This document shows positions 16,389-19,378 of a stretch of 64,000 nucleotides of DNA, in pieces. Under the pieces are notes generated by a model, which searched no databases, had not been told where the DNA came from, and saw only the letters and a list, made by a program, of their open reading frames with translations. The DNA is from Micromonospora zamorensis. Its GTDB lineage: Bacteria > Actinomycetota > Actinomycetes > Mycobacteriales > Micromonosporaceae. The stretch lies in the NCBI RefSeq assembly GCF_900090275.1, contig NZ_LT607755.1, forward strand, positions 558,001 to 622,000. The letters run 5' to 3'. Position 1 is the first letter of the stretch. Every line of letters begins with the position of its first letter. The translations under genes were made by a program, and so were the position numbers.

Positions 16389-18326
16389 GTGCGCTACCGC
16401 CAGCTCACCACCGGGACGCTCGCGCTGGGCGTCATCCTGCTCATCGACGTGCTGCGGGTCTGGTTGCCCGGCATCATCACCATCTTCGGCCAGGCGGCGT
16501 CCACGCCGGCCGAGCTGATGGGCGCGTTCGCCCTCGGCTGGTTCGTGCTCGCGCTGGGCGCACCCGCTGTGGTCCGCCGGGTCGGCGCCCGCCCCGTCAC
16601 GGTCGTCGCCGCCGTTCTGCTCGCCGTCGCCCGGCTCGCGCTCACCGCAACACCCGGCGGGCGTACGCAGCTCTGGTTGGCCACCGCCGGGCTGCTCGCC
16701 GGGCTGGTCTGGCTGGTCGGCGTCGCCGCCGACACCGACCGCCCGGTTCCGGGGCTGGCGTTGGGTTTCGCTGTCAACGCGGCCCTGCACGCGGTGTTGG
16801 ACACCGTCGACCTGGTGTGGCGGGGCGGCTGGTTGGCCTGGCTGCTCAGCTCCGTCGCGGTCGTGCTGTTCGTGCTCGGGACGGCGCAGCCCGGCACCCG
16901 TGCCGATGGCGTGACCGGTACCGGTGGGGTGCGGGCCTGGCTGCTGGCCGGGCCGGCGCTGCTGCTGGCCGGAATGGTGGCGCTCTCCCCGGCGCTGGCC
17001 CGGACCGGGATGTCGTTCCTGGTGGCCGGGGACGGCGTGGCTCGTTCGCCGCTGTTCGGCCTGGCGCCGGTGCCGGTGGCGGTCGCCGGGTTCCTGTTTA
17101 CCGCGTTGACCCGACCGCCCCGGGGGTGGAGCCGTGCGTACGGGCCGGTGGCGCTGCTGGCCGGCGCGGTGCTGTTCGCCCTCGACAGGGGTGACCTGCT
17201 CCTCCCGGCCGTCCTGCTCGCCGCAGTCGGTCTCGGTGCCTGCCTCGCGCTGACCGACGACGCCAGCGGCCCGGACAGCGACGCCGGCAACGCCAGCGAC
17301 ACCGCGAGCGCCAGCGACACCAGCAACGCCAGCGCCAGAGCGGCCCGCCGGGGGTACGCGGTGGCCGCCGGCATGCTCATCTTCGCGCTGGGGGCGGTCG
17401 GGTACTACTCCGCCTACGACCTCGGTTACCCCAACGCGGCGGTGCCCGTGCTGGTGGCCGGGCTCGCCGCCGTCGTGGCGTTCGCCGCCCGTCCCGTCGT
17501 GCACCGGCTCCCCGGGCCGTTTCCGCCACTACGGGCCGCCGCAGCGGTCACCGCGCTGGCCCTGCTGGCGCCGGTGCTCGCCGACGACATCCCGGTGGCC
17601 AGCAACCGGGACGGCCCGCCGGAGCGGCTGACCGTGGTGGCCTACAACATCCGGATGGGTTTCGGGCTGGACGGCCGGTTCGACCTGCCCGGCCTCACCG
17701 AGGTCGTCGAACGGCAACGACCCGACGTGGTGCTGCTCAGCGAGGTGGACCGCGCCTGGCTGCTCAACGGTGGGCACGACACCCTGGACCTGCTGGCAGG
17801 CCGGCTCGGTATGCCGTACGTCTTCGGGCCGGCCGCCGACCCGGTCTGGGGTGACGCGGTGCTCAGCCGTTGGCCGATGCGCGACCCGCGCAGCCGCCCG
17901 CTGCCGGCCGTCGGGGCGCCCACCGGTGCGCAGGCCCTCGCCGTCACGCTGGACCTGGGCGACGGTGTCCGTACCGCCGTGGTCAGCACCCACCTGCAAC
18001 CGCCACCGGGGCGGGGCCCTGTGGTGCAGGCCCGCGCGGTCGCGGACTTCGCCACCCGGTACGCGGCCGGCCGACCCCTGGTTGTCGCCGGCGACCTGAA
18101 CACCGAGCCCGGCGACGAGGCGTACACGGAGTTCACCGACGCGGGCCTGACCGACGCGTTCGCGACCGCCCGACCGCTGGCGACCAGCCCGGCGGACGAC
18201 CCGCGCCAGCAGATCGACCACATCTTCGTCTCGCCCGGCCTGACTCCCGGCGACCCGGTGGCGCCCCGCAGCACGGCCAGCGACCACCTGCCGGTCGCGG
18301 TGACCCTGACCCTCCCGCCCCGCTGA
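16389..18326 (+). CDS. Polytopic membrane protein with C-terminal EEP (endonuclease/exonuclease/phosphatase) domain
   Basis: A 645-residue protein. About ten hydrophobic segments fill residues 5-400, interrupted near 290-320 by a low-complexity Asp/Ser/Ala/Asn stretch. From about 410 there is a full EEP domain: VVAYNIRMGFG, VVLLSEVDR (metal-binding Glu), VVSTHLQPPPG, VVAGDLNTEPGD (metal/phosphate site) and a final ASDHLPVAVTL (catalytic Asp-His). All key residues are present, so phosphoesterase activity is expected, with the domain probably outside the membrane. The substrate is unknown; a lipid or cell-wall phosphoester is one option. The GTG at 16389 begins with the first membrane segment. 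Confidence 0.85.
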   Translation: MRYRQLTTGTLALGVILLIDVLRVWLPGIITIFGQAASTPAELMGAFALGWFVLALGAPAVVRRVGARPVTVVAAVLLAVARLALTATPGGRTQLWLATAGLLAGLVWLVGVAADTDRPVPGLALGFAVNAALHAVLDTVDLVWRGGWLAWLLSSVAVVLFVLGTAQPGTRADGVTGTGGVRAWLLAGPALLLAGMVALSPALARTGMSFLVAGDGVARSPLFGLAPVPVAVAGFLFTALTRPPRGWSRAYGPVALLAGAVLFALDRGDLLLPAVLLAAVGLGACLALTDDASGPDSDAGNASDTASASDTSNASARAARRGYAVAAGMLIFALGAVGYYSAYDLGYPNAAVPVLVAGLAAVVAFAARPVVHRLPGPFPPLRAAAAVTALALLAPVLADDIPVASNRDGPPERLTVVAYNIRMGFGLDGRFDLPGLTEVVERQRPDVVLLSEVDRAWLLNGGHDTLDLLAGRLGMPYVFGPAADPVWGDAVLSRWPMRDPRSRPLPAVGAPTGAQALAVTLDLGDGVRTAVVSTHLQPPPGRGPVVQARAVADFATRYAAGRPLVVAGDLNTEPGDEAYTEFTDAGLTDAFATARPLATSPADDPRQQIDHIFVSPGLTPGDPVAPRSTASDHLPVAVTLTLPPR

Positions 18327-18336
18327 AACACGCCCC

Positions 18337-18501
18337 AGGGCGTGTGTGGGAAGTGTCGGTCGAGCTGAGCCGGAGTCCAGGTGTCGTCCGGCAAGGCGGA
18401 GCGGTGTTCGGATACCGGTGTTGTATCCGAACACCGCGACAACGCCGCCGGGCGGCGGCTGGGCCCGGCGCAGGCCGGCCAGCACTTCCCACACACGCCC
18501 T
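18337..18501. repeat. 165-bp nested palindrome, MITE-like
   Basis: The ends are perfect 19-bp inverted repeats: AGGGCGTGTGTGGGAAGTG at 18337-18355 and its complement at 18483-18501. The centre has a second perfect inverted repeat of 15 bp (GCGGTGTTCGGATAC, 18401-18415; complement 18423-18437) around a 7-nt loop. The arms between are partly complementary, so the whole could fold into one long hairpin. It lies between two convergent genes and overlaps the last base pairs of the stop codon at 18500-18502. It could be a MITE, a dispersed palindrome or a two-way terminator. Confidence 0.85.
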
Positions 18502-19378
18502 ACAGGCGGTCGACGGCCAACAGGCGGTCGGCGGTGAAGGCAAGCAGCCAACCGCCGCCCTTGGGCGTCGTGAAGTCCTCGTCGGTGCGGCCGGTGAGCT
18601 GCTCCAGGGCGCCCGGCAGCACCTTGCCCTGGCTGCACACCGCCACCTGCCCACCGGCGTTGGCCAACTCCAGCAGCCGGGCGGCGGTGGCCAGGATCTG
18701 CTCGTCGCTCTGCTGGCCGGGCTGGGGTTCGTCCAGGTCGCCGCAGATCTCGATCGGCAGGTCGAGCAGCGCCGCCGCCGGGTCCAGTGTCTGCACGCAC
18801 CGTCGCGGTGACGCCGACACCAGCCGGGACGGCCGGATCAGGGCGACCAGGTCGGCCAGGGCGCTCGCCTGGGCCCGTCCCTCGGCGTCCAGGGGCCGCC
18901 CGACGTCCGGACCGGACCAGGTGGCCCGCTTGCCTGCGTGTGCGTGCCGGACCAGCGCGACAGTCGCGGTCACCGGCGGCAGCGCGGCGAACGCCGCCAG
19001 GACCTCGGCGTCGTGCGGGTAGCTGACCAACCGGATCGCGTCGTCCACCGCGAGCCAGCGCATGTCGTCCACCTCGGTGTCCGGTTGGAAACCGCCGCTG
19101 GCCACAGCGAGCATCGACCAGTAGTCGACCAGCTTGGCCTGCCCCTCGCTGCGGTACCGCACCGACGGCAGCCGGACCTGCGGTACGCCCCGCACGTCGG
19201 ACTCCTCGGCCACCTCACGGACCGCCGCTGCCAGCGCGTGCTCACCCGGCTCCAGCTTGCCCTTCGGCAGCGTCCAGTCGCCGTAGCGGGGGCGGTGCAC
19301 CACACAGACGCGTACGCCGTCGGGGGTCGGCCGCCAGGCCACCCCGCCCGCCGCCCGGATGCCGATCACGGCAGCCAA
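18500..19378 (-). CDS. Nudix hydrolase fused to histidine phosphatase (MutT1/SixA-like)
   Basis: A 292-residue two-domain protein. The Nudix domain (1-135) has the box GKLEPGEHALAAAVREVAEES. The C-terminal histidine phosphatase domain (about 137-290) begins with VALVRHAHAGKR, whose RHA motif carries the phospho-accepting His. This fusion is known from mycobacterial MutT1, which acts on 8-oxo-GTP and diadenosine polyphosphates. Its start overlaps the end of the CYTH-CHAD gene by 13 bp, so it belongs to the ppk group. Its stop codon lies in the end of the 165-bp palindrome. Confidence 0.88.
   Translation of the reverse strand: MAAVIGIRAAGGVAWRPTPDGVRVCVVHRPRYGDWTLPKGKLEPGEHALAAAVREVAEESDVRGVPQVRLPSVRYRSEGQAKLVDYWSMLAVASGGFQPDTEVDDMRWLAVDDAIRLVSYPHDAEVLAAFAALPPVTATVALVRHAHAGKRATWSGPDVGRPLDAEGRAQASALADLVALIRPSRLVSASPRRCVQTLDPAAALLDLPIEICGDLDEPQPGQQSDEQILATAARLLELANAGGQVAVCSQGKVLPGALEQLTGRTDEDFTTPKGGGWLLAFTADRLLAVDRL

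Follow-up and report, generated by a model that had tools for sequence, protein, structure and literature searches.

A 165-bp hairpin element of Micromonospora zamorensis as a probable two-module IS5-type MITE with exchangeable ends and a core kept foldable on one strand

A nested palindrome between convergent genes

The window analysed here is a stretch of 64,000 nucleotides from Micromonospora zamorensis. In it, a nested palindrome of 165 bp sits between two convergent open reading frames (Table 1). The structure that an earlier note had read from the letters alone is confirmed by our measurements: the 19-bp ends (18337-18355 and 18483-18501) form a perfect inverted repeat, the central inverted repeat of 15 bp is perfect and encloses a 7-nt loop, the 37-nt outer arms are 84% complementary, and all 165 nt fold end to end into a single long hairpin. 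With up to three mismatches allowed, the 19-bp end finds only these two matches in the window, against 0.04 expected from shuffles. Folded as RNA, the + strand reaches -138.7 kcal/mol (z -15.4) and the - strand -113.7 kcal/mol (z -10.4); for either strand none of 200 shuffles gave as low a value.

Table 1. Coordinates of the hairpin element, its parts and its neighbouring genes in the window
Feature	Position	Strand	Basis or remark
Left neighbouring ORF, 645 aa	16389..18326	+	reads towards the element
Right neighbouring ORF, 292 aa	18500..19378	-	reads towards the element; Nudix/phosphatase according to the earlier note
Whole hairpin element as reported	18337..18501	+ (better-folding strand)	end search, folding, arm comparison, genome copies
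Transposon proper, GGGCG...CGCCC	18338-18500		limits set by comparison with other copies
Left terminal inverted repeat, IS5-type end	18338..18355	+	end search; other copies and IS ends compared
Right terminal inverted repeat	18483..18500	-	end search
Left flanking CA	18336..18337	.	inferred from the flanks of 102 copies
Right flanking TA	18501..18502	.	common to the stop codon of the - strand gene
Conserved motif GGCAAGGCGGA, 5' arm of core	18390..18400	+	alignments
Central stem, 5' strand	18401..18415	+	outer part differs among copies, with compensatory changes
Apical loop CGGTGTT, 7 nt	18416..18422	+	folding; relatives via covariance model
Central stem, 3' strand	18423..18437	+	
Conserved motif GACAACGCCGCC, 3' arm of core	18438..18449	+	alignments

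The element was also said to lack coding capacity, and this holds: the ORFs crossing the 165 bp are mechanical overlaps only, and coding scores are low across 104 copies (maximum 5.0, mean -14.5). A scan for sigma-70-like promoters gave no hit. None of the six copies in the own genome scored above an Rfam gathering threshold; the only overlap, with MIR5534 in two of the six, reached 25.3 bits (threshold 79) at an E value of 0.56.

As had been noted, the right end of the element shares the stop codon of the - strand ORF. The window copy carries a TA flank on one side only, and on the other side the CA, judged by the flanks of other copies, is probably the decayed TA of a target duplication. The element is absent from this site in all 15 relatives in which both flanks were present, and the lengths of their spacers varied.

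Two further observations concern the left border. The stop codon of the left gene together with the next bases (18324-18336, TGAAACACGCCCC) resembles the right end of another element type (the element at L028 terminates in TGAAACACGCCCT) and abuts the left end of the window element; the same arrangement occurs at L157. Possibly these are remnants of tandem insertions or junctions of abutted ends. In two relatives (L044 and L051) the orthologous spacer begins (T)AGGGCGTGCGAG, which resembles an element end, is found without a full element and may be due to chance or to an old remnant.

Copies in the genome, the family and the class

Six 165-bp copies are present in the own genome (7.1 Mb, one contig), the other five being 76-92% identical to the window copy. 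All six fold over their full length, with the same element strand better by about 25-35 kcal/mol. Short derivatives occur as well, such as a 52-bp piece (C1:6959162-6959213; about 1500-1551 of L063) which has both ends and TA on both sides, the core being deleted.

A scan of one genome per species returned at least 120 stretches with the 18-nt loop, mostly from Micromonosporaceae (Micromonospora, Asanoa, Longispora, Rugosimonospora, Paractinoplanes, Virgisporangium, Catenuloplanes and others) and with a few unrelated chance hits; since the 18-nt loop was itself the search pattern of this family scan, loop invariance in the resulting set exists by construction. Full hairpins were found at 104 of the 118 sites examined (own, genus and family loci). 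Excluded were four sites cut by locus ends, one without pairs round the loop and nine that were weakly folded. Genome G069 has five copies at five loci that are identical at 158-162 of 162 positions.

The core covariance model was run on samples of 150 genomes of the family and 296 of the class; it matched 72 of the former, from 19 of 44 genera, and 39 of the latter, from 19 of 114 genera. For one genome the number of matches is 60, although some reverse-strand echoes are included in such counts. The phylum search was run with model R2, a poor model of only five base pairs, and its outcome (4 of 296) says little on distribution. On plasmids the window element found no match; one Streptomyces plasmid holds a partial match of a class relative (53% covered, 81% identical) in a stretch unmatched by model R1. 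Viral contigs gave no match to the loop pattern, and model R1 matched none of their 44 stretches with a core-motif 16-mer.

Mobility and landing sites

For the idea of a MITE-like, non-autonomous transposon, further copies and a matching insertion sequence (IS) in the genus had been set beforehand as the things to be found. What we obtained are six copies in the own genome, more in the genus and the family, ISs with the same kind of ends, TA flanks and empty sites of a sister copy. Target duplications, which had been expected at other copies, are visible too: of the 102 copies with resolved flanks, 44 have TA on both sides, 36 on one and 22 on neither. TA makes up 1.2% of the dinucleotides around copies, and the flank seen most often is CTA...TAG, at 21 of the 44 copies. 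Copies with GAG-type ends have identical flanking trinucleotides in 9 of 18 cases, all of the form TNA.

The sister copy L007 is 92% identical to the window copy. At its site all 30 relatives fetched are without the element and have 0-81 other bases; in L436 there is CTAG and then the same right flank. Genome G034 has an element of another subfamily, with other ends, at the same CTAG, which indicates an independent insertion. The empty site of L436 (genome G056) also contains a short tandem array, in which a piece ending CTGCTGCGTCCGCTA duplicates the gene end with CTAG. For copy L008 the predicted empty site was not found, none of the matches listed spanning the junction. That the element is a non-autonomous IS5-type transposon (MITE) is well supported.

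Landing sites are frequently stop codons. Genes were called, for stop codons as well as for the gene settings given below, with a small codon table that had been trained on only five ORFs of the window, and were not taken from annotation. On this basis 112 neighbouring genes read towards an element, of which 70 end at most four bases from the junction, 59 of them with TAG. A stop codon lies at the junction of 62 of the 104 elements, against 49 of 182 control CTAG and 33 of 1262 control TA sites. In the arrangement C-TA-GGG...CCC-TA-G the TAG is rebuilt on either side. The placement may reflect either selection against harm or target choice.

Partner insertion sequences and the exchange of ends

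The own genome contains an IS of 1035 bp with ends TAGCGCGTGTTTCGTAAG and CTTATGAAACACGCGCTA and a transposase of 300 aa, and own and related genomes contain ISs of 0.9-1.0 kb that encode DDE transposases and have similar ends. The proposal that an IS with the same ends would exist stands in part: there are ISs with similar ends for several end types, but none was found with the exact end of the window copy (AGGGCGTGTGTGGGAAGTG, against AGCGCGTGTTTCGTAAG at the start of the own-genome IS).

DUF4096 transposases are present in seven of the eight element-bearing genomes searched, and clear inverted ends could be read in 6 of 30 DUF4096 loci (L209, L210, L212, L215, L218 and L230). Of 17 positions compared with the ends of element copies, 15-16 agree for the ends of five ISs (L077, L218, L212, L209 and L210), where shuffled ends gave at most 13-14. 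For L230 the value is 14 (shuffled 12), and for L215 it is 13, no better than shuffled. The best matches between IS and copy ends are mostly between organisms; among the four best matches listed, only L218 (copy L130) is matched within the same organism. Judged by Pfam domains, the transposase pieces are of the IS4/5 DDE kind: PF01609 (DDE_Tnp_1) was found in all five scanned and PF13340 (DUF4096) in three, the other two being C-terminal parts. Relative to the own-genome transposase they are 81% (L212), 54% (L210) and 27% (L218) identical.

Inside the IS loci searched no core was found; a core occurs only beside one IS, at L218. There an IS5-type IS (1347-2373) adjoins an element (1200-1327) whose core is of the class type and whose ends, AGAGAGACCGGCAATAGG, differ from those of the IS; the TA is common to both.

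At least eight kinds of end occur on one conserved core, and the transposases matched by different end types can be as little as 27% identical. In one genome, of Paractinoplanes tereljensis, L107 and L113 have 99% of core columns in common, but their two ends agree at only 56% and 44%; on both arms the difference lies in the 17 or so bases that follow the nine outermost ones, which are alike. The reverse is seen for L109 and L190, with ends 94% and cores 70% the same, that is, the same ends on different cores (L132 alone was omitted from this comparison of cores and ends). On a core tree of 100 of the 104 copies (L096, L104, L132 and L179 left out; 88 labelled by hand-made patterns, 12 unlabelled) the eight end types need 19 changes, where the minimum is 7 and shuffled labels need 51-63, so that ends track cores only loosely. 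The data support exchangeable ends on the element cores. Core lineages have repeatedly gained different matched ends, and so have probably changed their transposase. As a guess, the two ends might change together because one arm is copied from the other through the hairpin.

Folding constraint on the core

Compensatory double changes were observed in 41 of 59 pairs, based on 29 copies less than 85% identical. These are the 33 representatives below 85% identity without L096, L104, L132 and L179, which were omitted from the alignments A1 and A2. Paired cells amount to 92.7%, against 75.3% in shuffled and at most 43.9% in slid alignments, and covariation scores 0.53, where shuffled alignments reach 0.21 and slid ones at most 0.13.

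A further line of evidence is the polarity of the mismatches, counted in all 104 copies with the two arms aligned by strand-symmetric DNA scoring. In the 26 copies less than 80% identical, the ratio of G-U to A-C is 28:1 in the central stem, 100:33 in the core, 32:13 in the lower arm and 15:9 in the ends. Over all 104 copies it is 96:8 in the central stem and 82:21 in the ends. End recognition should not require the central stem, so the polarity there suggests that selection acts on one folded strand, and it is supported that the core is kept for its fold on that strand.

From genus to genus the motif and loop of the core are conserved, and across the class they are so in a looser way; loops of the model R1 relatives include CGGTGTT, CGGGGTT, CGGAT and others. 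In 24 class relatives the middle arm has a polarity of 102:32, and the apical stem is without polarity (15:12). Many class relatives have inverted ends beside TA and GGCAAGGCGGAGGAGG opposite CGACGACGACAACGC, i.e. tandem G-A mismatches between G-C pairs. In L264-L287 runs of GGAGGAGG lie opposite CGACGACGA as repeated tandem G-A mismatches in the folded strand, which could form sheared G-A pairs in RNA. Two copies (L096 and L104) have the apical stem-loop flipped relative to their own arms and show weaker folds (-110 and -114).

A two-module element and the alternatives

We propose, at a probability of about 0.7, that the element is an IS5-type MITE built from two modules, namely exchangeable IS ends and a hairpin core kept foldable on one strand. 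The first module would consist of some 17-26 bp per side which imitate the ends of IS5-type insertion sequences, and the DDE transposase of such an IS would move the element in trans. On insertion TA would be duplicated, or TNA where the ends are of the GAG type. If the target is a CTAG at a TAG stop codon, the event should be nearly harmless, because on each side the duplicated TA restores TAG together with the element's first G. The second module would be the core hairpin domain, with arms that carry the GGCAAGGCGGA / GACAACGCC motif and with the conserved loop of 7 nt; its central stem is variable in sequence but nearly always paired, the core staying foldable on one strand. Weighing against the proposal are the lack of a sigma-70-like promoter hit, the unpolarised apical stem in class relatives, the matches of IS and copy ends that lie mostly between organisms, the ends of L215, the 22 copies with TA at neither flank and the empty site of L008 that was predicted but not found.

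We lean slightly towards RNA, rather than single-stranded DNA, as the form in which the folded core would act, in the service of the element's own persistence. A DNA fold, e.g. one extruded at replication or used as a transposition substrate, is the less likely of these two options and on balance doubtful. In DNA hairpins, too, G-T pairs are better tolerated than A-C, and the direction of neighbouring transcription is without effect: the codirectional copies comprise 28 in sense and 19 in antisense, no clear bias, which argues against a simple role in read-through mRNA. The orientation relative to the replication fork is nonetheless unbiased overall (53:58, with 3:12 in one genome of five), which argues against a lagging-strand role, and the ends are of the DDE type with target duplication. 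The fork counts comprise 111 hits, i.e. the matches listed for four of eight genomes plus the six own copies, with reverse-strand echoes removed and lengths rounded for the four.

It might also be argued that this is an ordinary MITE with a functionless core, the palindrome and its compensated changes being by-products at the DNA level, from self-templated quasi-palindrome repair and from transposase selection for matched ends. Transposase binding predicts perfectly matched ends, the G-U to A-C ratio in the ends is small in the diverged copies, hairpin-templated repair could give perfect central stems, and orientation biases are absent. Yet the ratio in the central stem is not expected from strand-symmetric DNA repair, such repair would also erase the conserved core mismatches, and the conservation of motif and loop across genera speaks against it as well. 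We regard this explanation as unlikely.

Least probable is a device that acts in both directions between convergent genes, either as a transcription terminator, the option raised in the earlier note, or as an insulator: the hairpin is very stable and 37 of the 91 copies with both neighbours resolved (13 others are unresolved) lie in a convergent setting, but 47 lie between codirectional and 7 between divergent genes, no T run follows the full stem at 18337-18501, the sole hit of a terminator scan (18402-18417, 0.1 expected) lies inside the hairpin with a tail that is part of its 3' arm, loop and motif are conserved, and the CTAG target accounts for the stop-codon position. The terminator reading was rejected, as it leaves strand polarity, conserved loop and exchangeable ends unexplained. 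A side effect of the element on transcription is possible.

Starting from the two-module element, a bolder and tentative extension, which we hold to be rather less probable than its negation, is that a conserved RNA domain travels as a class-wide transposon passenger. It would swap its outer 20-odd bp for the ends of different IS5-type transposons, land in TAG stops without breaking them, and be selected as folded + strand RNA (with tandem G-A runs outside the Micromonosporaceae) that acts on the transposase, the host or the neighbouring mRNA.

Comparison with known systems

MITEs are usually regarded as decayed ISs with meaningless interiors. Here it is the interior that is conserved and the ends that change, and the interior is under a strand-specific folding constraint in many genera. 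Two questions thereby become testable: by what route a passive element can switch transposase, and whether a functional RNA can be carried by bacterial MITEs. The findings further suggest a rule for safe landing, in which CTAG stop codons are rebuilt on insertion, and provide a repeat family for the annotation of actinomycete genomes.

The matching ISs are presumably akin to the IS5-family groups with TA or TNA duplication (the IS427 and IS1031 groups). With IS5-family ISs the element has in common the similar ends, the DDE_Tnp_1/DUF4096 transposases of the matching ISs and the TA or TNA duplication; it differs in being without a transposase gene. REP and BIME elements are likewise spreading, imperfect intergenic hairpins of which one strand folds. 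They are moved by RAYT (Y1) transposases, are much shorter and are without long terminal inverted repeats or target duplication; with 165 bp, inverted ends and a TA/TNA duplication, membership of the REP/RAYT group was rejected. ERIC and other enterobacterial intergenic palindromes are multi-copy and lie near gene ends. They are intergenic palindromes of similar length, whereas the present element has exchangeable IS5-type ends and belongs to a different host group.

Our searches of open-licence papers returned no description of the hairpin family, and it is not described in the accessible portions of a 2024 review of prokaryotic MITEs (PMC10969869), of PMC2267715 or of PMC4681348; the accessible text of the review gave no hit for actino, Streptomyces, Frankia or Mycobacterium. 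According to that text, transcripts of MITEs are predicted to form one long stem-loop, QMITE2 of Coxiella being the example in a figure. The IS-derived bacterial MITEs covered there (PMC10969869) resemble our element in being short and non-coding, in their matched inverted ends and target duplication, in the existence of ISs whose ends are similar and in a predicted long stem-loop. Compared with the MITEs in that part of the review, the present family stands apart in that one core is combined with at least eight kinds of end matching very different transposases, and in its compensatory changes, the polarity of the core on one strand and the frequent position at stop codons.
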